Shown piece by piece: positions 33,717 to 57,845 of a stretch of DNA of 64,000 nt. A program made the position numbers and the translations under genes. The stretch is from Halobellus clavatus (lineage in GTDB: Archaea > Halobacteriota > Halobacteria > Halobacteriales > Haloferacaceae): assembly GCF_900107195.1 (NCBI RefSeq), contig NZ_FNPB01000001.1:62001-126000 (forward strand). The letters are read 5' to 3'. The notes under the pieces are model-generated. The model did not search any database and was not told the DNA's origin. It was given only the letters and a program-made list of their open reading frames with translations. Each line of letters begins with the position of its first letter. The stretch's first letter is position 1.

Positions 33717-33864
33717 GTGTCAACTGGTCCGGGGTGGCCCCGGACGTCGAGGTTTGTTTCGGGAATTGCAAATATATTTTCTCTGCAGTAAAGTTCGGAG
33801 TTGTGAATGCGTAACCATTATGAGCGACACAGCCCACTTCACTGGTACGAGGCAACGAAATACG

Positions 33865-34782: not shown

Positions 34783-34803
34783 CTATGTTTGGTTACGCAC
34801 AAG

Positions 34804-34814
34804 CCTATAAGAAA
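34804..34814 (+). promoter_or_regulatory. Possible internal promoter before sufB
   Basis: CCTATAAGAAA lies about 32 bp before the sufB ATG at 34841, in an AC/AT-rich 58-base gap. It may allow sufBD to be transcribed separately from sufC. Confidence 0.4.
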
Positions 34815-34840
34815 CGAACCGTAAACACACACCACACACT

Positions 34841-36271
34841 ATGAGTTCCGAACAAGATCACCTCAAAGACACTGACACCGAAGCCCGCTTCGACTTCAAG
34901 AAGGAGGAGTCCTCGGCGTTCCAGACCGAGAAGGGCCTGACCGAAGAGACAGTCCGCGTCATCTCCGAGGACAAAGACGAGCCCGAGTGGATGCTGAACC
35001 GGCGGCTCCGGGCACTGAAGCAGTTCCAGAAGATGCCGATGCCGACCGACTGGCCCGGCCAGCCGGACCTCTCGGAAGTCGACGTCGCGGAGATCGTCCC
35101 GTACATCCGCCCCGACGTGGACGTCCGCGCGGGCGTCGACGACTGGACGGAACTCCCCGACGAGATCAAAGACACCTTCGACAAACTCGGCATTCCGGAA
35201 GCCGAGAAGAACGCGCTCTCCGGCGTCGGCGCTCAGTACGAGTCCGAAGTCGTCTATCAGAACATGCAGGAGCGCTGGGAGGAGAAGGGCGTCATCTTCA
35301 TGAATATGGACAAGGCGGTGCAGGAGCACCCCGAAATCGTCAAAGAGCACTTCATGACGAAGTGTGTCCCCCCGTCGGACAACAAGTTCGCCGCGCTGCA
35401 CGGTGCGGTCTGGTCCGGCGGCTCGTTCGTGTACGTCCCCGAAGACGTCACCGTCGAGATGCCCGTTCAGGCGTACTTCCGGATGAACTCCGAGGGGATG
35501 GGCCAGTTCGAGCACACGCTCATCGTCGCCGAAGACGGCGCGGAGGTACACTACATCGAGGGCTGCAGTGCCCCGAAGTACTCCGCGTTCAATCTGCACT
35601 CCGGCGGCGTCGAGGTCTTCGTGGGCGAGGACGCCCACGTCCAGTACTCGACCGTCCAGAACTGGTCGAAGAACACCTACAACCTCAACACCAAGCGCGC
35701 GCTCGTCGAGGCCGACGGCCGGATGGAGTGGATCTCCGGCTCGATGGGCTCGAAGGCGACGATGCTGTACCCCTCGACCGTCCTCAAGGGGCCGAGGGCC
35801 TCCGACAATCACATCACTATCGCCTTCGCTGGCGACGGACAGAACATCGACACTGGCGCGAAGGTCTATCACAACGCGCCGGACACGAAGTCGACCATCG
35901 AGTCGAAGTCGATCTCGAAAGACGGCGGCCGGACCAACTACAGAGGGCTGGTCCACATCGCCGACGGCGCAACTGACTCCTCGACGTCAGTCGAGTGTGA
36001 CGCGCTGATGTTCGACAACGAGTCGACGTCGGACACGATGCCGTATATGGAGATCAACGAGTCGAAAGTCGACGTCGCCCACGAGGCGACGGTCGGCAAG
36101 ATCGGCGACGAGGACGTCTTCTATCTCCAGTCGCGCGGCCTCGACGACGACGACGCTAAACAGATGATCGTCTCGGGCTTCATCGAGCCGATCACCGAAG
36201 AGCTCCCGATCGAGTACGCGGTCGAGCTCAACCGCCTCGTCGAGCTCGAGATGGAGGGGAGCCTCGGATAG
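34841..36271 (+). CDS. sufB: Fe-S cluster scaffold protein SufB
   Basis: This is a 476-residue scaffold subunit that builds Fe-S clusters with SufC and SufD. An N-terminal helical region (ETVRVISEDKDEPEWMLNRR) precedes the long right-handed beta-helix. Family landmarks are HGAVWSGGSFVYVPEDVTV, EHTLIVAEDGAEVHYIEGC, the region SMGSKATMLYPS, GLVHIADGATDSSTSVECDA (with the conserved C-terminal Cys) and MPYMEINESKVDVAHEATVG. Length and motif order are normal for archaeal SufB. Its TAG is one base before the sufD ATG, indicating coupled translation. Confidence 0.96.
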   Translation: MSSEQDHLKDTDTEARFDFKKEESSAFQTEKGLTEETVRVISEDKDEPEWMLNRRLRALKQFQKMPMPTDWPGQPDLSEVDVAEIVPYIRPDVDVRAGVDDWTELPDEIKDTFDKLGIPEAEKNALSGVGAQYESEVVYQNMQERWEEKGVIFMNMDKAVQEHPEIVKEHFMTKCVPPSDNKFAALHGAVWSGGSFVYVPEDVTVEMPVQAYFRMNSEGMGQFEHTLIVAEDGAEVHYIEGCSAPKYSAFNLHSGGVEVFVGEDAHVQYSTVQNWSKNTYNLNTKRALVEADGRMEWISGSMGSKATMLYPSTVLKGPRASDNHITIAFAGDGQNIDTGAKVYHNAPDTKSTIESKSISKDGGRTNYRGLVHIADGATDSSTSVECDALMFDNESTSDTMPYMEINESKVDVAHEATVGKIGDEDVFYLQSRGLDDDDAKQMIVSGFIEPITEELPIEYAVELNRLVELEMEGSLG

Positions 36272-36272
36272 T

Positions 36273-37487
36273 ATGAGCGGCGTCCAACTGCCCGCGAACC
36301 TCTCCGAAGAGACCGTTCGCGAGATCTCAGAAACCCGCGACGAACCCGAGTGGCTGCTCGAAGCCCGCCTCGACGCGCTCGAATCGCTCGAGACGCTCGA
36401 ACTCCCGGACGTCATCCAGACGCCCGGCCGTCGCTGGACCAACCTCGACGCGCTCGACTTCGAGTCGCTCGTCGACCCGCTGGACCAGGCCGACGAGACC
36501 GAGCGCGCGAGCGACGAGGGCGTCGAAGTCCTCACGTTCGCCGAAGCGATCGACGCGCACCCCGAACGCGTCGAATCCGCGTTCGGTTCGACGATCGATC
36601 CCGAGGAGAACTACCTGACGGCGCTGTCGGCCGCGCTCTTCACCACCGGGACAGTCGTCTACGTCCCCGAGGGCGTCGACGCCGAGGACGTGACGATCCG
36701 CGCGGAGATGAACTCCCGCTCGCTGTTCAGTCACACCCTCGTCGTCACCGAGAAATCATCGTCGGTGACCATCCTCGAGAGCATCGAGTCCGGCGAAAGC
36801 GTCGACAGCGACGCGCGGTACTTCTCGAACCTCGTCGAGATCGACGCCGGCGAGAACTCCTACGTGCAGTACGGGTCGCTGCAGGACCTCGAAGAGGACA
36901 CCTACAGCTACTCGCTCAAGCGCGCAGACGTCGGCACGTACGCGACGGTCAACTGGATCGAGGGCAACCTCGGCTCCCGGCTCACCCGCTCGGACGTCGA
37001 GTCCGAACTCAACGGCGACTCCGCCGAGACGAAGATCGTCGGCGCGTTCTTCGGTCACAGTGACCAGCACTTCGACGTGAATGCGCGCGTCTGGCACAAC
37101 GCCGAGAACACGACGGCGGACCTCGTCACCCGCGGCGTCCTCGACGAGGAGGCGCGCTCGGTCTACGAGGGCGTCCAGGACGTCGGCCGCGACGCGTGGA
37201 ACACGAGTTCCTACCAGCGAGAGAACACGCTGATGCTGTCGGACGATAGCGAGGCCGACGCGTCGCCGAAGCTGATCATCCAGAACCACGACACCGAGGC
37301 CTCTCACTCCGCGACGGTCGGACAGGTCGACCAAGAGGACCTGTTCTATATGGTCTCGCGGTCGGTGCCGCCGCAGCAAGCGCGGAATATGCTCGTGGAG
37401 GGGTTCTTCGTGCCCGTCCTCGAGGAGATCGAGGTCGACGAGTTCCGTGAGGACCTCGAAGAACTGATCGCCGCGCGTCTCCGGTAA
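36273..37487 (+). CDS. sufD: Fe-S assembly subunit SufD
   Basis: This is a 404-residue paralogue of SufB that pairs with it on the SufC dimer. The N-terminus repeats the SufB pattern (ETVREISETRDEPEWLLEAR). Then come ALFTTGTVVYVPEGVDAEDV, SHTLVVTEKSSSVTILESIE, a beta-helix core (FFGHSDQHFDVNARVWHNAE) and the C-terminal HDTEASHSATVGQVDQEDLF, with the conserved His also found in SufD. No cysteine desulfurase gene follows, so sulfur donation must be encoded elsewhere. The gene ends 23 bases before the convergent pilus cluster. Confidence 0.95.
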   Translation: MSGVQLPANLSEETVREISETRDEPEWLLEARLDALESLETLELPDVIQTPGRRWTNLDALDFESLVDPLDQADETERASDEGVEVLTFAEAIDAHPERVESAFGSTIDPEENYLTALSAALFTTGTVVYVPEGVDAEDVTIRAEMNSRSLFSHTLVVTEKSSSVTILESIESGESVDSDARYFSNLVEIDAGENSYVQYGSLQDLEEDTYSYSLKRADVGTYATVNWIEGNLGSRLTRSDVESELNGDSAETKIVGAFFGHSDQHFDVNARVWHNAENTTADLVTRGVLDEEARSVYEGVQDVGRDAWNTSSYQRENTLMLSDDSEADASPKLIIQNHDTEASHSATVGQVDQEDLFYMVSRSVPPQQARNMLVEGFFVPVLEEIEVDEFREDLEELIAARLR

Positions 37488-37510: not shown

Positions 37511-40500
37511 TCATTCTCGTTGGCACTGTCCCGTCGGCGTGACACAGCGCGGCCCGGGTGCAGAACCGCGCCAGGCCAGCGACCGTTCGTCCATATTGCC
37601 GTCAGTGTCGCCAACACCGAGTTTGCCCGGTGGGACGACCGCGACGGCGACCGTCCGGATCCGGAAGTCGACGCGTTCGCTCCGGCCCAGCGCCTCCGAC
37701 ACTCCGTCGCCGTCGACGTCGAGCGAGACGGCCGCACCGTCGCGGACGTACGTCGTGTCGCTCCCCTGAGCCCCGACGGCGAAGCGGCCGTACGCGCCGC
37801 GGGACTCGACGATCCAGAGGTTCGCCGTGGCGACCCACGGACTGAGCGTCGGCGAGAGCGGTAGCCCCGCCGGGATACCGCCGATGGTGTCGTTCGTCGC
37901 GCGGGCGAGACCCCGCTCGGTGGCACGGGCCGCGGCGTCGGTCGCCGCCCTCTCGGCGACCGCGCGGGTGGAAGTGACGGCGTCGTCGACGGCGGATTCG
38001 GGGACGCGAACGCGCTCGGAAGTCGCGACCGCCCGGAGTTCGACACGGAGGGCGGTGCGGAGTCGGTCCGCGGCGACGGCCCAGGCCTTCTGCCCGGTGG
38101 AGTCCGTTTCGACCGCGACAGCGGCCACTGCGCGGGCCAGGGATCCGTCGGTCGCGGCGACCGCGCGCTCGCCAGGGCCGCCGAAGCGGGCGAACGACTG
38201 ATCCACGACCCGGCGGCGCTCGTCACGGGTGAGCGACGTTTCCCGAGCAAGCGTGCGCGTGGCGGTGGTCCGGACGTCACCCATCGACTGTTCGACCGTC
38301 CGCGCGAGCGCGTCACGTCGCGCTCGAAGCCGTGGGTCCCGGTGCGTTTCGAGGGTCGAGTCGGCGGCGACGAGCGCCTGCCCCGCGGTGTGCAGTGAGA
38401 CGCGACCGGGGTCGCCAAGCAACGTTCGCGTGACGAGATCCGCGCTGTCGCCGTACGGCACGCTGAAGACGTTCACGTTTCTGACAGCGAGTCCGACGTA
38501 GCGTTCGTCGTCAGCGACGCCGTCAACGAGCGTGCCCTCGACGGGATCGGGTGCGAGATACGCGGGGTCCGCGTCGGGGAGCAGGACCGTCTCGCCGCGG
38601 ACGCCCGTCTCCCCCCCGAGGTTCGTCCGCGGTGATGGTGCGTCGGGGGTGAGCGTCGCGAGGTTGTTCACTCGCGAGGGTACGAGACCGCTCGCGTCGA
38701 GCGCGCGATCGATGCCGGCGTTCCGCGACCGGGTCTGTCCAGCGCGGTCCTCGAGTCGCGCGACGACCCGATCGAGGTAGGCCGCGCGGGCGGCGACGCG
38801 AGTTCGATCCGCAACGCCGTCGTACCGGGACGGCGCGTCCAGTAACGCCTCGCGTCGATCGCGGAGCAGTGCCGCGAGCCGCGCCGCGCCGTTTGCGTGG
38901 CCGGTGGCGGCGTCGCTGGCAGCAACGTCGACAGAGAGGGTGCGGACGCGCTCTCGGAGTTCAGCGAGATCGGCGTAGATCCACGAATCGAGGTCGGCGG
39001 GTCGCTCGCCGACGAACGCCCGCGATCCGCTCGTTCGGCCGCCAGTCACCGCCTTCCGGGCAATTGCATCGGCACCGCCGAGCGCGGAGACGAGCCGCTC
39101 GGTTTCCGCACGTCCCTCGCGCAGATTCGGCCCGGCGAGCGCGCCGCCGGACTCGAACAGCGGTCTGAGGGGACGGGTCGGTGCCGCGGTGCCCCGCAGG
39201 CGACCGGTCCCGGTGATCCGAACGCGGTGGACGTCCCGCCAGGTAGCGCTCGTCGTCCGGGGGGTCTCGTTGCGTTTCACCCAGGTCCGGTCGACGCGCC
39301 ATCGCTCGGTGACGCGTCGGGTGGCCGAGTAGAGTCGTCGCGTCCCGACGCCGGCCCGGGAGGCCACCCAGCCGCGTCCGTCGCCTCCACTCACGGAGAT
39401 GTCGTTGGCCGTCGTCGAATACGCGAGAGTCCAGTTCTCGCCGGGAGCCCGCGGAGACGGGCGGTGGCCATCGGCGACCGTCTGCACGCTGGTGTGGACT
39501 GCGACCGTCGCGCGATAGCCATCGCGCCGGATCGATTCGAGGGACTGTGCTCCGTTCGTGCCCCGGAGCAGCGAGAGGAACGCGTCGTCCGCTGTCCCGT
39601 TGACCCCCACCGAGACGGTCTGTGCCGCCGGGAGCGACGTCCGTCCGGAACTGGCCCCGGTTCGCTCGGCCGCGTTCGGGTCCGGAAGGCGACCCGTGAC
39701 CGCCGAGACGACTCGCGGGTCCGTTCGGGGGCCGAGGAGGTCGGTCGCGCCGGTCCGGAGCGTCGCCGCGCGAACGCCGGCCGCCGCGTCGGGGTCGGCC
39801 CGCCCGAAGGCCGCCCGCTGTGCGTCCAGCAACCCGGCGTTCGTCGAGAGCGCGACGTGGCGGTTCCCGACGACGTTCGTGATCGGCAGGCCCCCGTACT
39901 GTCCCAGGCCGCGGGCCTGTGCCATCGCCGTGACCCCGATCGTGGTCCGGCGAGCGAGCCCCGGGGCTTCGATCGGATCGGCGTTCAACCGCGTCTGGAA
40001 GGCCGTCGTGCGGTCGTGAAGCGCCAGCACCGGAACACCGACGGTTACCGTCCGATTCACGCGGCGCGTGTCGAGCGTCCGCCCGTCTGTTTCGACCGTC
40101 AGTTCGAGCCCGTGGATCGTCACCTGGAGTTCCGTGCCGTCGTCGACGCCGGCGATCGAAACGCGCTGGATCGCCTCGGAGGCGTCATCGATTGCGATCC
40201 CGAAAGACGCGCTGGCGACGCTCGCACCACGGTGGTGTTCGACCGGCTCCATCGCCGCCCGAGCGGCGAGGAAGATCCGGAGTCGGAGATATCGACGGAA
40301 GGTATCGGGCCCGGTGAGCGCGGTACCGGCGTCGCTGTCGGCGGCAAGCGTGACCGGATCGCGCGCGGCGGCCATAGCGGCATCGCGAGCAGCGACTCTG
40401 AGGGCGGCGGTCGCTTCGGCATCGACACGGTCTGCCGCGACGTCGGCAGATCGATCGACCGGCGTCGGTCCGGGCGTCGCGAGTGAGGCAGCGAACGTCG

Positions 40501-40573
40501 AACTGCCCACGAGCAGCAGCACGCCGAGGAGCGCGAACGGGATTCGAGCGCGGTCGTCTTCGGCGAGCCGCAT
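37511..40573 (-). CDS. Very large surface protein of the pilus-like cluster (DUF7286-like)
   Basis: This is a 1020-residue protein with a single N-terminal hydrophobic segment after charged residues (DDRARIPFALLGVLLLVGSS, about residues 5-24), the layout of TadG/TadE-type or pilin-like proteins. The rest is extracellular-looking: Thr/Arg/Asp-rich, no cysteines in the first 1000 residues, with many predicted helices (ADRLRTALRVELRAVATSER). The only Cys residues I see are near the C-terminus (RCVTPTGQCQRE). It is the last gene of a four-gene unit, and its ATG overlaps the preceding stop. Its function is unknown. Confidence 0.8.
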   Translation of the reverse strand: MRLAEDDRARIPFALLGVLLLVGSSTFAASLATPGPTPVDRSADVAADRVDAEATAALRVAARDAAMAAARDPVTLAADSDAGTALTGPDTFRRYLRLRIFLAARAAMEPVEHHRGASVASASFGIAIDDASEAIQRVSIAGVDDGTELQVTIHGLELTVETDGRTLDTRRVNRTVTVGVPVLALHDRTTAFQTRLNADPIEAPGLARRTTIGVTAMAQARGLGQYGGLPITNVVGNRHVALSTNAGLLDAQRAAFGRADPDAAAGVRAATLRTGATDLLGPRTDPRVVSAVTGRLPDPNAAERTGASSGRTSLPAAQTVSVGVNGTADDAFLSLLRGTNGAQSLESIRRDGYRATVAVHTSVQTVADGHRPSPRAPGENWTLAYSTTANDISVSGGDGRGWVASRAGVGTRRLYSATRRVTERWRVDRTWVKRNETPRTTSATWRDVHRVRITGTGRLRGTAAPTRPLRPLFESGGALAGPNLREGRAETERLVSALGGADAIARKAVTGGRTSGSRAFVGERPADLDSWIYADLAELRERVRTLSVDVAASDAATGHANGAARLAALLRDRREALLDAPSRYDGVADRTRVAARAAYLDRVVARLEDRAGQTRSRNAGIDRALDASGLVPSRVNNLATLTPDAPSPRTNLGGETGVRGETVLLPDADPAYLAPDPVEGTLVDGVADDERYVGLAVRNVNVFSVPYGDSADLVTRTLLGDPGRVSLHTAGQALVAADSTLETHRDPRLRARRDALARTVEQSMGDVRTTATRTLARETSLTRDERRRVVDQSFARFGGPGERAVAATDGSLARAVAAVAVETDSTGQKAWAVAADRLRTALRVELRAVATSERVRVPESAVDDAVTSTRAVAERAATDAAARATERGLARATNDTIGGIPAGLPLSPTLSPWVATANLWIVESRGAYGRFAVGAQGSDTTYVRDGAAVSLDVDGDGVSEALGRSERVDFRIRTVAVAVVPPGKLGVGDTDGNMDERSLAWRGSAPGPRCVTPTGQCQRE

Positions 40574-41472
40574 CACCGGTCACCTCCGGTATCGCCCCAC
40601 GTTCTGACCACGATACGGACCGAGGAGACCGAAACCGCTTCCGCGGCCTGGGTCGGGGAGTCATACTCAGATCGGAGATCGGCCGACATCCGGGGCGCGA
40701 GGCGGCGTGCAATCCGTGCATTCGCCGCCGCCGTATCCTCGGTCGTGAGCGGTGCCGACACTGAGGCGTTGGTTGCCGCCGCCAACCGCGCGTAGCGGTG
40801 GCGGACCAGCGCCGCCGCTGGGTCGTCGCCGCGGAGCGCGAGCCGCGCCGGACCGGGAGGCACGAGGAGGTTCACGGTCCGTTGAGCGACTGCAGTCCCG
40901 AGTCGATCGAACCCGTCGGCGGTCGATGGCGGCAGCGGCTCGATGCCCGTCGGAATCGTGAGCGTCGCAGCGTGGACACGGTCGGAGGAGGGTTCGGGGC
41001 CAACGCCGAGGTGGCCACCGACCGGTGCGCCGGGATACGGTCGCCACGTCGCGTCGATGCGGACCGACGCACCGGTGCGGGCACGGACCGTATCGCGGAC
41101 GCCTGCAGTGAATCCCGCTCTGCTCCGGGTGAGCGACGACAGATCAGTCGTCTCGCCGTCGAGGTCGACGCCACTGCCAGCCACCGCGCCGCGGGCCAGC
41201 AGACCGGCGAGACTCCCCCGGGCCGTGCGGTCAAGTTCCGGGGAATCGAGAGCGATCTCCGGCGCGAGATCGGCCGCTGAAGCGGACGCTCGCATCTCGC
41301 GAACCCCCGGTGCGAGCGAGTAGTTCACCGCTGCGGTCGTCGTGGCGAGCGCGTCGGCGACGGCGTCGGCCGAGCCGTCCGTCGCGGCTGGCGACCGGTC
41401 GATCGTCGCGAGCCCGACGACAGCCGCCGAGAGCAGAAGCAGACAGATCGCCGCGTCGATGGCGACGTTCAT
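40573..41472 (-). CDS. Membrane-anchored protein of the pilus-like cluster (DUF7284-like)
   Basis: This is a 299-residue protein with one N-terminal hydrophobic helix (MNVAIDAAICLLLLSAAVVG). The remainder appears to be an extracytoplasmic domain rich in Ala, Arg and Asp (VAQRTVNLLVPPGPARLALR; AANARIARRLAPRMSADLRS). The pattern of a short cytoplasmic start, one helix and a large exterior resembles pseudopilins or TadF-type proteins, but no prepilin cleavage motif is convincing. Its start overlaps the stop of the upstream gene and its stop overlaps the next start, so the unit is translated as a chain. Confidence 0.72.
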   Translation of the reverse strand: MNVAIDAAICLLLLSAAVVGLATIDRSPAATDGSADAVADALATTTAAVNYSLAPGVREMRASASAADLAPEIALDSPELDRTARGSLAGLLARGAVAGSGVDLDGETTDLSSLTRSRAGFTAGVRDTVRARTGASVRIDATWRPYPGAPVGGHLGVGPEPSSDRVHAATLTIPTGIEPLPPSTADGFDRLGTAVAQRTVNLLVPPGPARLALRGDDPAAALVRHRYARLAAATNASVSAPLTTEDTAAANARIARRLAPRMSADLRSEYDSPTQAAEAVSVSSVRIVVRTWGDTGGDR

Positions 41473-41882
41473 CGCCACACCCAGACGGTGAGGCGGCCCC
41501 AGATCACCTCGCCCCCGCCGGCGGCGACGCTGACCGGACGGGTCGCTCGATCGACTCCGGGACGGCCGTCAGACGGTGGCCGCCGTCCGTTCGTCCATCG
41601 GCCCCGCGCTGTGCGCACCGCGACGGCGACGCGATAGCCGTCGGGGGCAACACGGCTCGCCCGGAGGAGGGCGACGGGGTCGACCACCCCGCCGGTGCTC
41701 ACGGCGTCGTGAACGCGGTCGAGGGTGGGGTCGGCGAGTTCGTTGTCGGTCTCGGTCGGCAGCATCGAATCCAGGCCCGCCGCGTAGAGAGATATCCCAG
41801 TGCAGACCGCGAAGAGGGCGATCAGCGCGACCAGTGGGGTCGTCTGCGCCCGCGTTCCCGATCGCCGGTCGCGATCACGCAT
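41469..41882 (-). CDS. Pilin-like/TadE-like small protein (DUF7285-like)
   Basis: This is a 137-residue protein whose N-terminus (GTRAQTTPLVALIALFAVCT, residues about 8-27) resembles archaeal pilin and TadE starts: a basic residue, Gln/Ala, Thr-Thr-Pro, then a hydrophobic helix. This is followed by about 100 exterior residues (YRVAVAVRTARGRWTNGRRP). That supports a structural role in the surface machine encoded alongside. The long frame upstream is a shadow of the neighbour, and ATG 41882 (MRDRDRRSGTRAQTT) overlaps the end of the next gene upstream. Confidence 0.7.
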   Translation of the reverse strand: MRDRDRRSGTRAQTTPLVALIALFAVCTGISLYAAGLDSMLPTETDNELADPTLDRVHDAVSTGGVVDPVALLRASRVAPDGYRVAVAVRTARGRWTNGRRPPSDGRPGVDRATRPVSVAAGGGEVIWGRLTVWVWR

Positions 41883-42354
41883 CGACGAGCACGACAGCCA
41901 CGTCCTCCCACGCGGTCCGGCGGACGAGCAGCGTCCGATCGACCTCGCGCCAGGGCGCGTCGGTCGCCCTGGCCCGGGCATCGACGACGGCCTGCCGAAA
42001 CGCCTCGGGCGAGTCGTACACCCGCTCGGGCGGCATCCCGTGGAGGACATCACGCAGCGGCGAATCCGCGACCGGAACCGGCGTAACGGGACCGAACGCC
42101 AGCGACACGTGAGCCGTGCCCGCGTCCGAGCGGAGTGCGATCCGGCGCGTCCCGAGTCGGATCGAATCGGCGTCCAGCGGGTGCTCCGCGGTCGAAGCGT
42201 ACTCCGTGGCCGCGACGCGATCGACGGTTGCTCCCACCGCGCCGGCATCCGGCGGCGGTGCCGACGGGAGTCCTGCGGTCGCGCCGAACAGGGCGACACC
42301 CGCGAGCGAGAGGCCGATCCAGGCGTACCACGCGTCCACCGTTACGTCGAACAT
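41875..42354 (-). CDS. Membrane-anchored protein, first gene of the pilin-like unit (DUF7283-like)
   Basis: This is a 159-residue protein with an N-terminal helix (AWYAWIGLSLAGVALFGATA, about 9-28) and a roughly 130-residue exterior domain containing RIALRSDAGTAHVSLAFGPV and WREVDRTLLVRRTAWEDVAV. The family is known to me only by a DUF number. The gene has a very good TATA-like box 21-33 bp upstream, so it starts a unit with the three downstream genes. Confidence 0.72.
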   Translation of the reverse strand: MFDVTVDAWYAWIGLSLAGVALFGATAGLPSAPPPDAGAVGATVDRVAATEYASTAEHPLDADSIRLGTRRIALRSDAGTAHVSLAFGPVTPVPVADSPLRDVLHGMPPERVYDSPEAFRQAVVDARARATDAPWREVDRTLLVRRTAWEDVAVVLVDA

Positions 42355-42374
42355 AGCGGCCTTGGTCCCGTCTT

Positions 42375-42387
42375 GGTATAAAAACGC
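42375..42387 (-). promoter_or_regulatory. TATA box of the pilin-like unit
   Basis: Minus-strand GCGTTTTTATACC is centred 27 bp upstream of ATG 42354. It is one of three similar T-rich boxes in the cluster (the others at 46230 and 47309). Confidence 0.65.
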
Positions 42388-42404
42388 TCGCGGGCGGTGC
42401 CCCC

Positions 42405-44177
42405 TCAGAACAGGGCTGCGGCCCCGACGTACGCCGCGAAGTACGCCGCGGTGGCGGAACAGAGTGCAAGACCGACGCTGTAGCCGACGAGCGACCGATC
42501 CAGGCCGCGATCAAGCCCGGTCGCCACGGCCGTCAGGATGACCGCAAGGGCGAGCACGTACGCGCCGACGGCCGTTCCGAGCAGCGACGGAGCCAGCACC
42601 GTCGTGCCCGCGGTACCGAGCGGTGCGGCACCAGACGCCACCACGGCTCCCGAGCCCGCTTCGCCGGCACGCGCGGCAGCCATCTGGGCCGCCATCGCGA
42701 CGGTCGCCCCGCCGACCAGCGGCCCGAACAGTGCGGCCGTATGCCGCAACGTCCCCGTGATCGCCGCAAGTTCCCGTCGGGCCGACGCTTCGACCCGCTG
42801 GAGCTCGGTCAGGTGAGCGGCCAGCGTGACCAGCGTGGGTCCCGCGGGCCGGCCCTCCCGCGCCGCGACTGCGAGGAGTGACGCGGTGGCCCGGGCGCGC
42901 GGACTCGGGACATCCGACAGCGCGCCGAAGTCACCGAGGAACGACCGATAAACGCCGACTCGCAGCCGACGCCCGACGCCGGCCGCAGCGGCGAAGCGGT
43001 CACTGGTGGCGCCGGTGGTCGCGTCGGCGGCCGAATCGATCGCTGACTCGACCGACTCGCCGCGGCTCACACGGCGGCCGACGACCGCCGTCGCGTCCGC
43101 GAGACCCTCTTCGACCGCTCTGACGTCCGCTCGTACCGCTGCCATCGGCCGATAATGAACGACGAGTCCGGCGCCGAGGCCGAGGCCCACGGCACCGACG
43201 GGCGACCCCCACGGCACGAGTATGCCGCCGAGAACTGCCCCGACGACGAGCCCAGCGACACCGGCGGCGATCCCACGGATTGGCCCCGACGGAACCGCGG
43301 GGTGAGCAGCGGTCACTCGGACGGGTGCGAGCGCGACCGGCCGTCGGAGTAGCAGCCACGCGCCCGCGAGGAGCAGACCCGTGGGGAGCACACAATCGTA
43401 GAGCAGGACGAACGCAGTCGCCGGAACCGACACGCCGCCGGCGCGTGCCGCTGGCAGCACGCCGACGAGCGCCAGTGGCAGTAGAACCCCAAAGGCGTAG
43501 ATCCCGCTCGCGGGCCCGCGGACGTCCCCAGCGAACTCGGCCATCTCGGTCCGGGTCCCGTCGAGGACCGTCTCCAGCGCCCGGTCGAGGGCCTCCGCAC
43601 GGTCCCCAGCCGAGTCCTCGACGGCAGCCACGAGCAGAGACACCGACCGTTCGAGCGCGGGAAACCAGCCCCGCCACTCGGCCGCGAAAGACCGGAGGCC
43701 GGCAGCGGGACCGGCGCGGGACCGTTCGGCGTGCGCTGCGAGGCTGTTCGCGAGCGGCCCCCGTCCGGTCCGCGCGGCGAACAGGGCCGCTCGCTCCGGT
43801 GTCGGGTCGAGTCTGAGTCGGAGCGCTGCGCGGGCGACGAGCCCGGGTGCCTTACCGAGCGACCGCGTCCGCCGGAGCGTCGCCGCGGCGACGGGCGCGC
43901 GGTGGACGAGCAGTGTCGTGCCCAGGCCGATCCCGACAGCCGCCGACAGCACCGCCGCCGGTGGGAGTCCAGGAATCGAGAGCGTCGCGGTCACGAAGAC
44001 CACCACGGCGACGATCTGGGCCGCGGTGTAGCCGGCGGCGACGACAGTTTCCGCACGGAGTTCGCTCTCGAGGAAGGCCAGTGAGCGGTTCAGTTCGTCG
44101 GTCGGTTCGACGGCGCCCGGATACCAGCGGGCGAGCGTCCGCACGAATCGGTCGAGTCGCGTGGGGGGCCCGGTCAT
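42405..44177 (-). CDS. TadC/PilC-type platform protein of a type IV pilus-like system
   Basis: This is a 590-residue inner-membrane platform with two GspF-like halves. Half one has a cytoplasmic segment (about 20-150) then helices near 190-260 (GIYAFGVLLPLALVGVLPAA, ATAFVLLYDCVLPTGLLLAG). Half two repeats this with VRAVEEGLADATAVVGRRVS, GRPAGPTLVTLAAHLTELQR and helices to the C-terminus (YVLALAVILTAVATGLDRGL). This is the organisation of archaeal PilC/TadC proteins, which anchor the assembling pilus. Start ATG 44177 overlaps the ATPase stop by 4 bases. Confidence 0.85.
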   Translation of the reverse strand: MTGPPTRLDRFVRTLARWYPGAVEPTDELNRSLAFLESELRAETVVAAGYTAAQIVAVVVFVTATLSIPGLPPAAVLSAAVGIGLGTTLLVHRAPVAAATLRRTRSLGKAPGLVARAALRLRLDPTPERAALFAARTGRGPLANSLAAHAERSRAGPAAGLRSFAAEWRGWFPALERSVSLLVAAVEDSAGDRAEALDRALETVLDGTRTEMAEFAGDVRGPASGIYAFGVLLPLALVGVLPAARAGGVSVPATAFVLLYDCVLPTGLLLAGAWLLLRRPVALAPVRVTAAHPAVPSGPIRGIAAGVAGLVVGAVLGGILVPWGSPVGAVGLGLGAGLVVHYRPMAAVRADVRAVEEGLADATAVVGRRVSRGESVESAIDSAADATTGATSDRFAAAAGVGRRLRVGVYRSFLGDFGALSDVPSPRARATASLLAVAAREGRPAGPTLVTLAAHLTELQRVEASARRELAAITGTLRHTAALFGPLVGGATVAMAAQMAAARAGEAGSGAVVASGAAPLGTAGTTVLAPSLLGTAVGAYVLALAVILTAVATGLDRGLDRSLVGYSVGLALCSATAAYFAAYVGAAALF

Positions 44178-46210
44178 CGCGTCTCGCCCCGAGAAGCCCG
44201 CTGCTGCTCGGCCGGCCGCGTCAACCCCGCGGCCGCGAGCCGCTCGAACCGCGCCGTTCGCCGGTCGAGCAGCGCGAGCACGTCGGCGTACGACTCCCCG
44301 TCTCGACGGAACCGGTCGACGAGCGTGCTCTCGCCGCGGTCGATGCGACCACACCGACGGAGCGACCCGTCCGTACGCTGGAAGAGCGCGTCGAAGGAGG
44401 GTTCCGCGCCCGCTCCATCGACCGCCTCGATCGCGGAGACGTATCGGTCGTCGCCGTCGCGAGCGCAGGTGACGACGAGGTCGGTCGCGCCGAACGACGA
44501 CGGCGGCACGCCGAGGTCGGAGACGACGCGCTCGCGGACGGCCGCGGCCGAGTCGCCGTGGATCGTCCCGAGCACGGCGTGGCCGTGCGCACCGATCCGC
44601 ATCGCCTCGTAGAGCGCGCTCGCCTCCTCGCCGCGGACTTCGCCGACGGCGAGCGCACCGTCGCCGAGTCTGAGCGCTGCTCGCAGCGCATCGGTGGGGG
44701 AGAACGACTCGTCTCCCGATCCGCCGGTCGCCCCGCCAGGCCCGCCCGACTCGGTGTGGAGCGCCTGGACATCCCGCCCCCGCTCGCGGAGCGACGCCAT
44801 CGGGAGTTCCGGCGTGTCTTCGATTGTCACGAGGCGCGTCGCCGGCGGCAGTTCCCACAGCAGCGCCCCGAGTGCCGTCGTCTTCCCCGCCCCACGAGTA
44901 CCGGCCACGATGATCGCCGCACCGCGCTCGACGGCGAGTGAGAGCACCGACGCCGCCCGGGCCGTGATCGAACCGGCTTCGATCAGGCGAGTCAGCGTCC
45001 ACGCCGACTCGTCGCGGATCCGGAACGCGAACCCGATGCCGTCGCTGGCGGGGTCAGTCACGCCCGCGACGCGAATCCGTCGCCCGGTTTCGCCGACCAG
45101 CGAGGCGTCGAGTGTCGGCGAACTCCGCGAGAACGCCCGTCCGCTCTCGCGTCGGCAGCGCGAGGCGAGCGACGCGGCCCCCGCCGGCGTCAGCCGGATG
45201 TTCGTGGGCAGGCGTTCTCCCTCGACGACGACACGGACTGGTGCCGCGGTCACCGGCGCGGAGACGAGAACATCGGAGACCGATTCGTCGGCGAAGAGGT
45301 GTTCGAGGAGGCCTAGCCCGTGGGTGTGCCGCGCGAGTACGTCGGCGATCCGCTCGACCGGCTGCGCCGCGGGTGCGACGCGCCTGACCGCGCGTCCGGG
45401 CGCGCGATCACCACCCCCGACGGAGCCACTCGCGAGCAGGTCGCGAGCCGCCGCCAGCGTGTCCGTCGCACCGTCGTCGAGGTCGCGCACGACGGGATCG
45501 AGGTGGTAGGAACGCCCCGACGCGGATTCGACGATCCGGACGGTCGCACCGGTCGGCACGTCGCGCGTCGCACGGACGGTGGCGTCGGCCGGGAAGCACT
45601 GTGACGCGTGCGCCTGCGAGATCGTCGGGCCGACGAACGGATCGAGCGCCGTCATGTATACATCTGCAGTCGGTGCGGTTTGCGACGAGTGCCCACCCCC
45701 GACGTGTGTCGCCGCGACATCGAGTCCCGATTCGGCGGCGATGCGAGCGACTGGACCCGCGCGCCCCGTAGCCTCGTGGCCCGCGGCGATCGGATCTCGG
45801 AGAGCCCGCTCGGCCAGCGCCTCGTCGTGAAACGCGACGCGCTCCACGAAGCGGCCCGCCGCGACGAGCAGCGCCAGGGCGGCGTCGGTGTAGGTCCGCT
45901 CGCGCCCGGCGCATCGGGTCCGGACCGTGTCGACATCCCGGCGAGAGAGCGCGTCGATCACTGTCGCCCGGCACGCCGGGGCCGATTCGAGTCGACCCCG
46001 ACCCGGACAGTCGCCGGCGTCGACGACGAGTTCGCACCGCTCGGAGAGCCCGAGCCCGACCGGTGTCTCGAACGACGTCCGACAGCGACAGACCGGTGAT
46101 TTCGCCGTCGATTCGTCGGCAGTGTCGGGATCGCGGTCGAAGACGGCGCGGGCCGCGTCCGACAGTGAGCTGTTCAGCCCGTCGACGAGGAAATCGAGGG
46201 AGCGAGACAT
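44174..46210 (-). CDS. Type II/IV secretion ATPase (PilB/TadA-like)
   Basis: This is a 678-residue motor ATPase. The C-terminal RecA-like core has Walker A VAGTRGAGKTTAL (about 437-449), the Asp box VTIEDTPELPM, Walker B-like LAVGEVRGEEA and the His box MRIGAHGHAVLGTIHGDS. The N-terminal 200 residues are unusual, with a Cys pattern CRCRTSFET, then CELVVDAGDCPG, then ACRATV and TRCAG, which may bind a metal. The domain before the core (DVLVSAPVTAAPVRVVVEGE) matches the N2 domain of PilB/VirB11 ATPases. It has its own strong TATA-like box and is coupled to the platform gene. Confidence 0.9.
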   Translation of the reverse strand: MSRSLDFLVDGLNSSLSDAARAVFDRDPDTADESTAKSPVCRCRTSFETPVGLGLSERCELVVDAGDCPGRGRLESAPACRATVIDALSRRDVDTVRTRCAGRERTYTDAALALLVAAGRFVERVAFHDEALAERALRDPIAAGHEATGRAGPVARIAAESGLDVAATHVGGGHSSQTAPTADVYMTALDPFVGPTISQAHASQCFPADATVRATRDVPTGATVRIVESASGRSYHLDPVVRDLDDGATDTLAAARDLLASGSVGGGDRAPGRAVRRVAPAAQPVERIADVLARHTHGLGLLEHLFADESVSDVLVSAPVTAAPVRVVVEGERLPTNIRLTPAGAASLASRCRRESGRAFSRSSPTLDASLVGETGRRIRVAGVTDPASDGIGFAFRIRDESAWTLTRLIEAGSITARAASVLSLAVERGAAIIVAGTRGAGKTTALGALLWELPPATRLVTIEDTPELPMASLRERGRDVQALHTESGGPGGATGGSGDESFSPTDALRAALRLGDGALAVGEVRGEEASALYEAMRIGAHGHAVLGTIHGDSAAAVRERVVSDLGVPPSSFGATDLVVTCARDGDDRYVSAIEAVDGAGAEPSFDALFQRTDGSLRRCGRIDRGESTLVDRFRRDGESYADVLALLDRRTARFERLAAAGLTRPAEQQRASRGETR

Positions 46211-46229
46211 AGCGCTCGTGGTCGCGTCA

Positions 46230-46242
46230 CCGTATATAAACG
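46230..46242 (-). promoter_or_regulatory. TATA box of the ATPase-platform unit
   Basis: Minus-strand CGTTTATATACGG is centred 26 bp upstream of ATG 46210. It is a near-ideal haloarchaeal TATA box in a 40-base intergenic gap. Confidence 0.7.
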
Positions 46243-46250
46243 ATCGCCGC

Positions 46251-46721
46251 TCACCCACCCGAGCCGCGGGCGGCGACGAGCGTGGGACCGCGGTCGTCCA
46301 CGACGAGCGCGAGCGAGACGACGTGTCGGCCGCTCGTGCGGAATACGATCGGGCCCGTGGGCGTGCGGAGCCGAACCGGAAGCGACAGTCCACGGATCCG
46401 CGTCGGCGACGATCGGAGGGCGTAGGTCACGACCGACCGGTTCCCGGGGCCACCCGGCCGGCCGCCGACCGCGACGAAGGCCGGAGCGGCAGTCGTCCAA
46501 GATTCCTGCGGGATCGAAACCGCGACGCGTCGCGTCGCCGCCGACCGCCGCGTTTCGACGGCGTCGTTGGTCGATGCGAGTCCCCTGCCGGCGCGTTCGA
46601 TTCGATCTGCCGCGTTCTCGATCCGGTCGGTGGTGTGCGTCGCGCTCGCATTCTCGACGGCCGGGAGAGCAGCCGCGAGCGTCGCGACGGTCAGCACCGC
46701 CGCGACGACCAGCCGAATCAC
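46251..46721 (-). CDS. Secreted or anchored small protein of the pilus-like cluster (DUF7311-like)
   Basis: This is a 156-residue protein starting with a hydrophobic segment (MIRLVVAAVLTVATLAAALP, 1-20) that is either a signal peptide or an anchor. An extended exterior domain follows: helical RIENAADRIERAGRGLASTN, then beta-rich RVAVSIPQESWTTAAPAFVA and HVVSLALVVDDRGPTLVA. It has no cysteines. It overlaps the coiled-coil gene upstream by 4 bases, so the two form one unit. Its function is unknown. Confidence 0.7.
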   Translation of the reverse strand: MIRLVVAAVLTVATLAAALPAVENASATHTTDRIENAADRIERAGRGLASTNDAVETRRSAATRRVAVSIPQESWTTAAPAFVAVGGRPGGPGNRSVVTYALRSSPTRIRGLSLPVRLRTPTGPIVFRTSGRHVVSLALVVDDRGPTLVAARGSGG

Positions 46722-47287
46722 CGGAGGGCGTCTCGGAGCCGCGCGCCGAGTCCCGACTGTCGGTCGGCATCCTGCTCGTCTGCTGCGAGCGGCCCCGATG
46801 AGGACCGCTCGCCCGATAGTGACGAAGGGTGGTCGTCCCGGGATCGGACTCGTTCGGCGGCCGGCGTCGTCGTGGCCGGCTGTTCCGTCGGTGCGTCCGC
46901 TGTTGGTGACTGGCTCGTCGATGAGTCCCTCTCGGGCGGCGATCCGGGCTCGGCCAGTCGCTCGCGGACGAGACCGTTCGGCTCGGTCGAGACCGCTTCT
47001 TCCAGCGCTTCGACCTTCGCGAGGGCGATCGACGCGCGTCGTTCGACCGCCTCGTCGATCGCCTCGACACCGCCGAGGAGGCCGCGGACGGCGTCGAGTT
47101 CGGCTTCCAGTTCGGTCACCCGGCGGTCGAGGGCGACCACGCGAGCAGCCTCAACGGCGTCCCCCCACCCCGGGCCACTCGCTGTGCTCTCCGGTTCGGT
47201 GGGTTGGTCTGACGCGTCTGCGGTAGCGGCTCGGGGGTCGCTCGACGACGGCGTCGGTCGGGCTCGACGGTCGGAATCGCTGGGCAT
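46718..47287 (-). CDS. Coiled-coil protein of the pilus-like cluster (DUF7310-like)
   Basis: This is a 189-residue soluble protein. Disordered acidic/Ser-rich ends flank a central coiled coil (about 45-105: LDRRVTELEAELDAVRGLLG, then VERRASIALAKVEALEEAVS). The terminal GLGARLRDALR is a short basic helix. It has no enzymatic or membrane features, so it could be an adaptor between the motor and another cytoplasmic component. It is the promoter-proximal gene of the cluster, facing cetZ head to head over 117 bases. Confidence 0.7.
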   Translation of the reverse strand: MPSDSDRRARPTPSSSDPRAATADASDQPTEPESTASGPGWGDAVEAARVVALDRRVTELEAELDAVRGLLGGVEAIDEAVERRASIALAKVEALEEAVSTEPNGLVRERLAEPGSPPERDSSTSQSPTADAPTEQPATTTPAAERVRSRDDHPSSLSGERSSSGPLAADEQDADRQSGLGARLRDALR

Positions 47288-47308
47288 ACCGAGGGTGGTC
47301 GCGGCATC

Positions 47309-47320
47309 CGATATAAACCG
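47309..47320 (-). promoter_or_regulatory. TATA box of the coiled-coil/DUF7311 unit
   Basis: Minus-strand CGGTTTATATCG is centred 28 bp upstream of ATG 47287, in the divergent gap with cetZ. The cetZ side has only weaker AT-rich sequence (AGATATACGC near 47390). Confidence 0.7.
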
Positions 47321-47404
47321 TCGCGTGGCCGCGTTCGGGTCGCCCGTCGACGGGGCGATTCGGCGGGGAGAACGTTGAAGGGGGACCTGAGAGATATACG
47401 CAGT

Positions 47405-48490
47405 ATGAAGTCCGTCCTGATCGGCGTCGGCCAGGCCGGCGGGAAACTCGCCCGCGAACTGGTCGAATACGACGAGCGGATGGGGTTCGGCTCCATTCGC
47501 GGCGCCGTCGCGGTCAACACCGCGAAGGCAGATCTCAGAAACCTCCCCTTCGAGACCGTCCTCATCGGTCAGGATCGAGTGAAAGGCCACGGCGTCGGCG
47601 GCGACAACGAACTCGGCGCCGAGGTGATGCAGTCGGATACGAACGAAGTCCTCTCGGCGCTGGACGGCCGCATCACCGCCGGCGTGGAGTCGATCTTCGT
47701 CGTCGCCGGCCTCGGCGGCGGCACGGGGAGCGGCGGCGCACCTGTGCTCGCGAAGGAACTCCAGCGGATCTACGACGTCCCGGTCTACGGTCTCGGAATC
47801 CTCCCCGGACGGGACGAGGGCGCGATGTACCAGGTGAACGCCGGGCGTTCGCTGAAGACGTTCGCGCGCGAGGCCGATGCGCTCTTGCTCGTCGACAACG
47901 ACGCCTTCCGGTCGGCCGGCGAGAGCGTCACCGAAGGATTCGATTCGATCAACGAAGAGATCGCCCAGCGCGTCGGCCTCCTGCTGGCGTCCGGCGAGGC
48001 CGTCGATGGGGTCGCCGAGAGCGTCGTCGACTCCTCTGAGATCATCAACACCCTCCGAACCGGCGGGATCGCCGCGCTCGGCTTCGCGTCGGCGGAGGCC
48101 GCCCCCGATGCCGAGGGGAACATCAACACCGTGATGAGCACCACTCGCCGCGCGCTCCTCTCGGGATCGAGTCTCCCGGACGCGACTGACGCCGACGCCG
48201 CGCTCCTGATCGTCGCCGGGGAGCAGGACGCCATCCCGCGGAAGGGCGTCGAGCGCGCGCGCAAATGGGTCGAAGAGGAGACCGGCAGTCTCCAGGTCCG
48301 CGGGGGCGACTTCCCCCTTTCGAGCGACCGGATTGCGACGCTCGTACTCCTTGGCGGCGTCGAACGCTCGGACCGACTGGAGACGTTTATGGAGCGCGCC
48401 GCGGACGCCCAGAAAGCCGAGGCGGAGGACCCCACCGACGGGGATCCCGCCGAGCAGTGGGGAAACGACGAACTCGACGACCTGTTGTAA
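47405..48490 (+). CDS. cetZ: Tubulin/FtsZ-superfamily protein CetZ
   Basis: This is a 361-residue GTP-binding cytoskeletal protein of the haloarchaeal CetZ group, which affects cell shape. The N-terminal nucleotide-binding strand is MKSVLIGVGQAGGKLARELV, the tubulin signature GLGGGTGSGGAP (about 102-113), and the catalytic-loop region GFDSINEEIAQRVGLLLASG. The C-terminal domain ends in an acidic tail (GDPAEQWGNDELDDLL). Paralogues occur in several copies per genome, and which one this is cannot be told. The frame extends 10 codons upstream, but ATG 47405 is the family start. It is divergent from the pilus-like cluster. Confidence 0.9.
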   Translation: MKSVLIGVGQAGGKLARELVEYDERMGFGSIRGAVAVNTAKADLRNLPFETVLIGQDRVKGHGVGGDNELGAEVMQSDTNEVLSALDGRITAGVESIFVVAGLGGGTGSGGAPVLAKELQRIYDVPVYGLGILPGRDEGAMYQVNAGRSLKTFAREADALLLVDNDAFRSAGESVTEGFDSINEEIAQRVGLLLASGEAVDGVAESVVDSSEIINTLRTGGIAALGFASAEAAPDAEGNINTVMSTTRRALLSGSSLPDATDADAALLIVAGEQDAIPRKGVERARKWVEEETGSLQVRGGDFPLSSDRIATLVLLGGVERSDRLETFMERAADAQKAEAEDPTDGDPAEQWGNDELDDLL

Positions 48491-49939: not shown

Positions 49940-50080
49940 ACCGACCGTATTTCACGGTAGTCATAAGTACTTTCGTCTCCGTGCGGCCACTGCCGCCGTC
50001 TGGGACGCGCGGTCGGCGCAGTGCCACTGCGACCAGCGAAGGAGCGAAGTGTGCGCCGCCGCAACAGGTGACCGAGAGCC

Positions 50081-50536
50081 GTGAAGGAGTTCGAACGAAA
50101 ACAGCTGTTAGAGCGTGTCAACCGCGAGGCCGCGACGGTGGGTGCGGAGATCCCGGACTCGATCGACGTCCAGGGCGAAGCGATCGAACTGCAAACCTTC
50201 GTCTTCGAGATCAAGCGGCGCGAGACGATCCCGCCGGGCGAACGCGACCGCGTCGAGCGGGCGAAGAAGAACCTCCGTCGCGAGCGCCTCCAGCGCCTCC
50301 AGCGGATCGAGGACGGAGAGATCTCCTACGAGAAGGGGGTCGAACTCGCCGAGAGCATCGTCGGCATCGACCGGGCCCTGAATGCCCTCGAACAGCTCCG
50401 TCCGGTCGACCTCGAGCAGGAGGCCGAGGTCAAAGAGACCGCCGACCAGAAGCGCTGGATGACGTTCCTGAAACAGGCGCTCGGTCGCGAGGACAGCAGT
50501 GGCTCGGCCCGGGGGCGCGGGGGTGGTCGGCTGTGA
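50081..50536 (+). CDS. DUF5788-like haloarchaeal protein
   Basis: This is a 151-residue, mostly helical, highly charged protein starting at GTG 50081: EFERKQLLERVNREAATVGA, VFEIKRRETIPPGERDRVER, GIDRALNALEQLRP. The C-terminus is Gly/Arg-rich (SGSARGRGGGRL), which might contact nucleic acid. No catalytic residues stand out. Its TGA overlaps the GTG of the polymerase X gene, so a repair-related or RNA-related role by association is possible, which is inference. Confidence 0.72.
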   Translation: MKEFERKQLLERVNREAATVGAEIPDSIDVQGEAIELQTFVFEIKRRETIPPGERDRVERAKKNLRRERLQRLQRIEDGEISYEKGVELAESIVGIDRALNALEQLRPVDLEQEAEVKETADQKRWMTFLKQALGREDSSGSARGRGGGRL

Positions 50537-52287
50537 GTCGCAACGCCGAGGTCGCCGCGCGACTCGAGGAGTTCGCCGACTTACTCGAAGCGGACGACGT
50601 CTCGTACAAACCGAACGTCTACCGACGCGCCGCCGAGAACATCCGGGAGCACCCCGAACCGATCGAGGAGCTCGCTGCGGACGGCGAGGCGGCGGTCGCG
50701 GAGATCGACGGCGTCGGCGACGCCATCTCCTCGAAGGTCGTCGAGTACATCGAGACCGGCGAGATCGAGGAACTCGAGGAACTCCGTGCGGCCCTCCCGG
50801 TCGATATCGAGGCGCTAACGCGGGTCGAAGGCGTCGGACCGAAGACCGTCGGAACGCTCTATGAAGCGCTCGAGATCACCACGCTCGACGAACTCGCGGC
50901 GGCCGCCGACGCCGGCGAGATCCAGGAGGTGAAGGGGTTCGGCCCGAAGACCGAGTCGAACATCCGTGAGAACGTCGCCTTCGCGCGGCAGGCCCAAGAG
51001 CGCGAGCGCCTCGGCGACGCGCGCCCGCTCGCAGACGACGTCCTCGGGTACCTCCGGGGGACCGACGCCGTCGCCGAGGCCGACGTCGCGGGGTCGATCC
51101 GACGGTGGCGTGACACCATCGGCGACGTCGACGTGCTCGTCGCCAGCGACGCGGGCGAGCGCGTCGTCGAGGCGTTCGTCGCGTGGCCGGGCGCGACGGA
51201 TACGATCGAGGCGGGCGACGCCAAGGCCAGCGTCCGCGCGGGCGACGTGCGGGTCGACCTCCGCGTCGTCGTCCCCGACGAGTTCGGCGCGGCCCTGCAG
51301 TACTTCACCGGCAGCAAGGACCACAACGTCGAGCTCCGGAACCGCGCGATCGCACGCGATCTGAAGATGAACGAGTACGGCGTCTTCGACGTCTCGGACG
51401 TTCCCGACCCCGACGACGGCCAGCGGGTCGGCGAGCGAATCGCCGGCGAGACGGAGGCGTCGATGTACGAGGCGCTCGATCTGCCGTGGATCCCCCCGGA
51501 ACTCCGCGAGGGGGCCGGCGAGATCGACGCGGCTGCCGAAGGCGCGCTCCCGGATCTCCTCAAGGCATCCAGTCTCCGCGGGGATCTCCACACCCACACC
51601 GACTGGTCCGACGGGCGGTCGTCGATCGACGAGATGGTCGCGGCGGCGGTCGATCGGGGAGACGACTACTACGCCGTGACCGACCACGCGACCGGGCCGG
51701 GAATGGTGGGCGGCGTCGGCCTCTCCGACGATGACCTCGGCGAACAGATGGAGGCGATCGAAGACGTACGCGAGAGGCTCGACTCGGACCTCGTACTGCT
51801 GCACGGCGTCGAGACGAACATCGACGCCGACGGCGGCCTCTCGACGGACGACGACCTGCTCGCGGCGTTGGACGTCGTCGTCGCCTCGCCGCACGCCGCA
51901 CTCGGACAGGACCGCGAGACGGCCACCGAGCGACTCGTCCGCGCCGTCGAACACCCGAGCGTCGACATCCTCGGCCACCCGAGCGGCCGACTGCTCAACG
52001 AGCGCGAGGGGCTGGAGTTCGACGTCGAGCGCGTCGCCGAGGCGGCAGCCGCTGCCGGGACGGCACTCGAGATCAACGCCGATCCCGCCCGACTCGACCT
52101 CCCTGGCGAGCGCGTCCGGATCGCCGTGGACGCTGGTGCGAGGATCGCGATCGACACTGACGCGCACGCGCCCGGCGCACTCGACTACGCGCGGTACGGG
52201 GTCCACACGGCCCGGCGCGGATGGTGCGAGCGCGACGACGTCCTGAACGCGTGGCCCATCGAGGAACTGCAGTCGTTCCTGCACTGA
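50533..52287 (+). CDS. polX: Family X DNA polymerase with PHP domain
   Basis: This is a 584-residue repair polymerase. The N-terminal helix-hairpin-helix 8-kDa domain is followed by nucleotidyl-transfer motif AGSIRRWRDTIGDVDVLV (about 195-212, two Asp ligands in GDVD), and the third Asp is in VRVDLRVVV. The C-terminal PHP domain has metal-ligand clusters DLHTHTDWSDG, VTDHATG, LLHGVETNI, ASPHAAL, GHPSGR and DTDAHAP, which all look intact. It can fill small gaps and process 3' ends. Start GTG 50533 overlaps the upstream gene by 4 bases, and a Mut7-C gene follows 10 bases later. Confidence 0.93.
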   Translation: MSRNAEVAARLEEFADLLEADDVSYKPNVYRRAAENIREHPEPIEELAADGEAAVAEIDGVGDAISSKVVEYIETGEIEELEELRAALPVDIEALTRVEGVGPKTVGTLYEALEITTLDELAAAADAGEIQEVKGFGPKTESNIRENVAFARQAQERERLGDARPLADDVLGYLRGTDAVAEADVAGSIRRWRDTIGDVDVLVASDAGERVVEAFVAWPGATDTIEAGDAKASVRAGDVRVDLRVVVPDEFGAALQYFTGSKDHNVELRNRAIARDLKMNEYGVFDVSDVPDPDDGQRVGERIAGETEASMYEALDLPWIPPELREGAGEIDAAAEGALPDLLKASSLRGDLHTHTDWSDGRSSIDEMVAAAVDRGDDYYAVTDHATGPGMVGGVGLSDDDLGEQMEAIEDVRERLDSDLVLLHGVETNIDADGGLSTDDDLLAALDVVVASPHAALGQDRETATERLVRAVEHPSVDILGHPSGRLLNEREGLEFDVERVAEAAAAAGTALEINADPARLDLPGERVRIAVDAGARIAIDTDAHAPGALDYARYGVHTARRGWCERDDVLNAWPIEELQSFLH

Positions 52288-52297
52288 GCGATTCGAC

Positions 52298-57651: not shown

Positions 57652-57700
57652 CCGCGAGCGCGAGCGAGTGGGAAGTCGTCACGGACGTGAGTGAAACGAA

Positions 57701-57774: not shown

Positions 57775-57845
57775 GGCATCAGCGTGTCCCACAGCAGCCG
57801 CTTAAACGGGTGGGGTTTCGCAAAAAGACCGGGTGGGGACGTGAC

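Follow-up and report, generated by a model that had tools for sequence, protein, structure and literature searches.

A probable type IV pilus-family operon divergent from the tubulin-like gene cetZ2 in Halobellus clavatus

Gene content and transcription units

A 64,000-nucleotide stretch of the Halobellus clavatus genome (assembly GCF_900107195.1, contig NZ_FNPB01000001.1, positions 62,001 to 126,000; hereafter the window, in whose numbering all coordinates are given unless a contig is named) carries eight minus-strand genes at 37511-47287 that lie in three transcription units, with a gene for a tubulin-like CetZ protein running divergently on the plus strand. This locus is probably a haloarchaeal PilB2/PilC2 operon of the type IV pilus family, resembling subclade 4F, that stands beside cetZ2. 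The nine genes were compared with Pfam and NCBIfam after start codons had been adjusted using the sequence and its relatives (DUF7285 at 41882, the TadC-like platform at 44177, the ATPase at 46210, DUF7310 at 47287, and cetZ2 at 47405), and all eight operon genes returned curated family scores or recognisable core domains. Read from the cetZ end, the minus-strand order is DUF7310, DUF7311, ATPase, TadC-like platform, DUF7283, DUF7285, DUF7284, and DUF7286. Neighbouring genes within the units overlap by 4, 4, 8, 4, and 4 bp, the units are separated by gaps of 40 and 50 bp, and 117 bp lie between the operon and cetZ2. The initial annotation had described a pilus- or Tad-like minus-strand gene set head to head with a cetZ gene at that distance, and both the family matches and the coordinates confirm the description.

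The first unit encodes DUF7310 (46718..47287, minus strand; PF23991, 59 bits), a predicted cytoplasmic coiled coil of 189 aa with an RLRDAL-like motif at its C-terminus, and DUF7311 (46251..46721, minus strand; PF23993, 147 bits), which has 156 aa and an N-terminal hydrophobic signal or anchor. The second holds the PilB2/TadA-type ATPase (44174..46210, minus strand; 678 aa; T2SSE, 70 bits) with the Walker A motif GTRGAGKT, followed by the PilC2/TadC-like membrane platform (42405..44177, minus strand; 590 aa), whose weak match to T2SSF falls below the cut-off. The third begins with DUF7283 (41875..42354, minus strand; 159 aa; PF23954, 183 bits), which has an N-terminal hydrophobic segment, and continues with the pilin-like DUF7285 (41469..41882, minus strand; 137 aa; PF23956, 125 bits; N-terminus ...TRAQTTPLVALIALF), the one-helix protein DUF7284 (40573..41472, minus strand; ~300 aa; PF23955, 283 bits), and DUF7286 (37511..40573, minus strand; ~1,020 aa; PF23957, 1132 bits), a surface protein with one hydrophobic helix that is preceded by an N-terminal R-A site. 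The divergent gene (47405..48490, plus strand; CetZ_C, 220 bits) encodes 361 aa that align almost without gaps to CetZ2 of Haloferax volcanii (4B45) at 553 bits, versus 341 bits for CetZ1 (4B46), relative to which about 22 residues are missing at the M-loop. A short M-loop is the published criterion for CetZ2 (PMC9856176), and by its sequence the protein belongs to the CetZ2 subfamily. One further gene with a CetZ_C domain occurs in the genome (G000:C13:13885-14445); H. volcanii has six CetZ genes.

Putative TATA boxes stand 30 bp before the start of each unit on the minus strand: TTTATA at 47312..47317 before DUF7310, inside the divergent intergenic region, TTTATA at 46235..46240 before the ATPase, and TTTTTA at 42379..42384 before DUF7283. 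Such a spacing between box and start is expected of leaderless haloarchaeal transcripts. Among relatives, TATA-like strings occur at -38..-18 in 10/14 sequences for DUF7310 (a small sample, as few DUF7310 starts could be located), 48/127 for the ATPase, and 85/111 for DUF7283, and no such string precedes any of the five internal genes (0/112, 0/121, 0/109, 0/89, and 0/111). The AT content in these relatives likewise peaks at the box position for DUF7310, the ATPase, DUF7283, and cetZ2 only. Because boxes precede three genes and none precedes the five internal ones, the three conserved predicted promoters define one unit each for the regulator, the motor, and the subunits, in agreement with the three promoter units of the initial annotation.

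The motor, prepilin-like sites, and one-helix proteins

The ATPase matches the TadA model of NCBIfam at 7.7e-34, under that model's cut-off, and its profile finds the archaeal GspE-like afGspE and CpaF as its best relatives in the PDB. It is a T2SSE/TadA-family ATPase with a Walker A motif, as in type IV pilus and TadA secretion systems, and it carries an N-terminal four-cysteine region (CxC..C..C) in which C1, C3, C28, and C40 are invariant across 24 sequences. In relatives, the gene for the platform consistently follows that for the ATPase. A machine of the TadA/TadC type, as initially proposed, is supported by these observations.

Prepilin-like sites were counted as [KR][AG] within eight residues upstream of the hydrophobic core. 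By this measure, an R-[AG] site stands ahead of the helix in 60/60 DUF7286 proteins, with N-termini of the form ...DDR[AG]-RVPFALVGVLLLV..., and in 51/58 relatives of DUF7285, with N-termini of the form ...R[AG]Q-x-EPLAALVAVFAV... and a conserved R-[AG]-Q-x-E/T-P. For DUF7284 a prepilin-like site of the form R-[AG]-[VI]-S-T is present in 25/55 relatives. Since R, A, and G are frequent in GC-rich genomes, the evidence lies in the conserved position of the site and not in its count, and cleavage of DUF7286 and DUF7285 is a prediction from the motif. A prepilin peptidase candidate, a Peptidase_A24 match (PF01478) above the cut-off, is encoded elsewhere in the genome (G000:C22:134445-134825), as are three PilA-type pilins. 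PF01478 was used in place of PF06819, the archaeal peptidase C-terminal family, because PF06819 misses the Haloferax control; it found no match in this genome either. These results overturn the initial view that the one-helix proteins lack a convincing prepilin site. The accompanying remark that no prepilin peptidase lies nearby is true; it is uninformative because one is encoded elsewhere in the genome. With conserved prepilin-like sites and a genomic peptidase in hand, the argument that the system differs from ordinary pili for want of such sites weakens and is left unsupported.

Structures were modelled for two of the one-helix proteins. The AlphaFold2 model of DUF7284 (predicted local distance difference test [pLDDT] 89, predicted template modelling score 0.85) combines a helix at the N-terminus with a head of mixed alpha/beta structure; Foldseek found nothing in the PDB for it at E <= 0.001, and no pilin was among the matches listed by VIA-align. 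Chains of the ribosomal S3 type, which VIA-align returned for this protein with Z <=5.8, were set aside as under the tool's meaningful level. For DUF7286 the model (pLDDT 81) has a poorly predicted N-terminus, and again Foldseek found nothing in the PDB at E <= 0.001. The two models are compatible both with kinship to pilins and with its absence. Comparison of the one-helix families with one another by hhalign gave probabilities of 0.6-3.5% for the pairs DUF7284/DUF7286, DUF7283/DUF7285, and DUF7285/DUF7284, and thus showed no relation between them. Pfam and NCBIfam scans of the operon report no TadE, TadF, TadG, or Flp, although remote homology could escape scans of this kind.

The ectodomains of DUF7284 and DUF7286, for which no confident PDB match was obtained, and the lack of a PilA-type pilin in the operon by Pfam would fit a Tad-like secretion or export apparatus, in which no filament is made and the one-helix proteins, with their large ectodomains, make up a fixed assembly on the cell surface. 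We regard this as unlikely. The conserved prepilin-like sites of DUF7285 and DUF7286 speak against it, haloarchaeal genomes often encode their major pilins at other loci (PMC4858521), and PilA-type pilins do exist in this genome.

Co-occurrence of the operon, the coiled-coil pair, and cetZ2

Across 292 Halobacteria genomes, DUF7286 was found in 224, and the same eight genes recur in the same order with few exceptions in 60 fetched regions and 80 named loci. The two genes cetZ2 and DUF7286 lie within 15 kb of each other in 83 of the 95 genomes for which positions were listed both for DUF7286 and for the best CetZ2 match; the pairs are divergent in all 83, which span 24 genera, and cetZ2 lies on the upstream side of the operon. 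This count is a lower bound because G040 and G152 were scored as having the genes on different contigs though the operon is itself split between contigs; in both genomes DUF7311 is found next to cetZ2 on the contig that carries the latter. The adjacency to a tubulin-like gene noted in the initial annotation is thus recurrent and not peculiar to this genome. When CetZ2 presence was taken as a best match to the window CetZ2 at E < 1e-100, operon and CetZ2 were both present in 204 genomes and both absent from 32; the operon alone was found in 20 and CetZ2 alone in 36 (Fisher p ~3e-11, odds ratio 9, with the relatedness of the genomes ignored).

One explanation of this pattern gives CetZ2 a dedicated role as cytoskeletal scaffold or positioning factor of the machine, to which the coiled-coil protein DUF7310 would tie it. 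The recurrent divergent adjacency and the phylogenetically uncorrected association argue for such a role, as does the finding that deletion of cetZ2 in H. volcanii changes cell shape in early biofilms (PMC10606840). So do the loci in which the coiled-coil pair stays with cetZ2: in G172 and G024 (f6/g30, the same genus) DUF7310 and DUF7311 are beside cetZ2 while the ATPase, platform, and subunits are elsewhere, and in Halorussus ruber (L165) the pair is beside cetZ2 in inverted order. Against a dedicated scaffold stand the 20 genomes that keep the operon without CetZ2, the 36 with the reverse, and the behaviour of the pair in the remaining loci. DUF7311 is present in 219 of the 224 genomes with DUF7286 and in 0 genomes without it; 41 genomes with CetZ2 do not have DUF7311, and 20 genomes without CetZ2 do. 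Operon loci without CetZ2 keep both DUF7310 and DUF7311, as seen in the genus-mate G014, which has no CetZ2, and in Natronomonas loci, which have no cetZ2 nearby. In Haloarcula the operon is away from cetZ2 and the pair is still attached to the operon. The coiled-coil pair therefore belongs to the pilus system, a minority of loci hinting at a connection to CetZ2, and the proposed coiled-coil link between machine and CetZ is weakened by the distribution of DUF7311 with the operon and the retention of DUF7310 without CetZ2, even as the pair in G172 and G024 favours it. A functional link to CetZ2, a sensible hypothesis that has been published before, is possible and not obligatory, because the operon is often kept without CetZ2 and each is found without the other. 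All told, a dedicated scaffolding role strikes us as doubtful.

DUF7310 ends mostly in R-[LI]-[RK]-x-x-[LF] after an acidic linker, both in the window (46721-46756) and in relatives, which suggests that the C-terminal motif is a docking helix. The RLRxxL motif was also tried as a marker of CetZ2-linked operons and rejected, the difference between loci with CetZ2 (57/77) and without it (24/43) being weak and phylogenetically confounded. A more elaborate proposal would have CetZ2 polymers position an envelope machine in archaea as its cytoskeletal track or scaffold. DUF7310 would dock them to the base formed by PilB2/PilC2, and instead of a classical pilus the one-helix proteins would form a surface complex of unsolved folds; we consider this proposal improbable.

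The competing explanation of the adjacency is that it reflects no more than synteny inherited from an ancestor or divergent regulation in common, with CetZ2 and the operon functioning independently. The gene next to cetZ2 in the window encodes a type I phosphodiesterase/nucleotide pyrophosphatase (PF01663, 48593-49939). In other genomes this phosphodiesterase often adjoins cetZ2, which retains it with or without the operon, and in several genomes missing cetZ2 it stands beside the operon, so that it marks where cetZ2 was lost or gained. These neighbours, the retention of operon and cetZ2 each without the other, and a 117-bp divergent promoter region that offers a simple regulatory reason for the layout are all in keeping with independence. 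The head-to-head arrangement is nevertheless kept in many genera, beyond the expectation for neutral linkage, albeit with common descent uncorrected. We find the case for synteny or shared regulation evenly poised.

Several further observations concern the distribution of these genes and their surroundings. In Natrialbaceae-type loci (L187, L199, L207, L210, L214, L218, and L220) a divergent form of the operon occurs with a weak or no DUF7286 match; cetZ2 is not nearby, and DUF7310 and DUF7311 are mostly present. DUF7311 is beside cetZ2 in G137 and G247 (family f4). DUF7286 was matched above the cut-off in Methanosarcina acetivorans, a control genome, and the family therefore reaches beyond Halobacteria. 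In the window, a SufC-SufB-SufD-type iron-sulphur cluster assembly operon (33754-37487) lies tail to tail with DUF7286, a layout that recurs in other Halobellus loci (L141-L143). Beyond the phosphodiesterase, the plus strand continues at 49981-52825 with a DUF5788 gene, a PHP-domain DNA polymerase X-like gene, and a Mut7-C RNase-like gene. One tRNA-Arg (anticodon CCT) is found on the minus strand at 57700-57775, with no second Rfam match in the window.

A predicted pilus-family machine and its known relatives

The locus most likely encodes an assembly machine of the type IV pilus family, with a filament or pseudopilus as its putative product. In the mechanism we envisage, the PilB2 ATPase would drive the PilC2/TadC platform to build a short filament or pseudopilus from DUF7285 and DUF7286, perhaps with DUF7284, after cleavage by the single PibD-type peptidase of the genome. 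DUF7286, with 1,020 residues, is a candidate large minor pilin or adhesin, and in this scheme it would form the outward-facing tip or act as an adhesin. DUF7283 and DUF7311 are envisaged as accessory parts anchored in the membrane, and DUF7310 as a coiled-coil protein of the cytoplasm that regulates the ATPase/platform pair. In some lineages CetZ2 may contribute to the positioning or timing of the machine, which can be retained without it. A number of results weigh against a pilus-family assignment. The platform scores 17.3 bits against T2SSF (cut-off 25.2, E 0.0046), the DUF7284 copy in the window has no basic residue before its helix, and DUF7283 has an R-[AG] site in 0/59 relatives by motif count. 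The confident DUF7284 model shows no pilin resemblance in the matches listed. Additionally, no filament or secretion phenotype for the locus was found in the literature, and H. volcanii PilB2 has been placed in subclade 4C (PMC6491452), the 4F label used here being a putative one.

The locus is a compact test case for whether a tubulin-superfamily protein positions an archaeal surface machine. The new data narrow the claim for CetZ2, as the machine is often kept without it and the coiled-coil/DUF7311 pair is mainly the machine's own. For experimenters, the division into units and the census show which genes group together and which genera may be CetZ2-independent.

Among known systems, the bacterial Tad/Flp pilus shares the TadA/CpaF-family ATPase and probably the TadC-like platform and differs in its Flp pilin, TadE/F/G, and outer-membrane component, none of which the family scans report for the operon. 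The clade 1 pilus loci of Thermococcales, which have a single CetZ, resemble the present locus in having cetZ within or next to the genes for a type IV pilus, and differ in their ATPase clade and pilin families by published description (PMC4858521, PMC9856176). Subclade 4F was described in 2016 by Makarova et al. as having an ATPase with a cysteine-rich N-terminus, the coiled-coil protein arCOG07564, which is a unique haloarchaeal component of 4F systems, and an ftsZ-like gene in its loci (PMC4858521). The present locus matches it in its TadA-type ATPase, which has cysteines at the N-terminus, in its surface protein, coiled coil, and ftsZ-like gene, and probably in its TadC-like platform, and DUF7310 may correspond to arCOG07564, with which it agrees by description. 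The PilA-family major pilin arCOG02981 is not evident in this operon, such pilins being encoded mostly by stand-alone genes (PMC4858521), and otherwise no difference in kind was found. Brown and Duggin reported in 2023 that the pilB2/C2 regulon adjoins cetZ2 specifically in many Haloferacales and Halobacteriales, and they proposed scaffolding (PMC9856176). That regulon resembles the present locus in its adjacent cetZ2 and phosphodiesterase neighbour; about seven predicted pilins were counted there, compared with two one-helix proteins with a clear prepilin-like site here, where the one high-confidence model (DUF7284) matched no pilin. The family names DUF7283 to DUF7311 were not found in the literature searched. 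Because these two studies already describe the 4F locus and its cetZ2 adjacency, the arrangement, which is real and widespread, is a rediscovery, to which the present analysis adds a larger census, promoter evidence, the distribution of DUF7311, and counts of prepilin-like sites.

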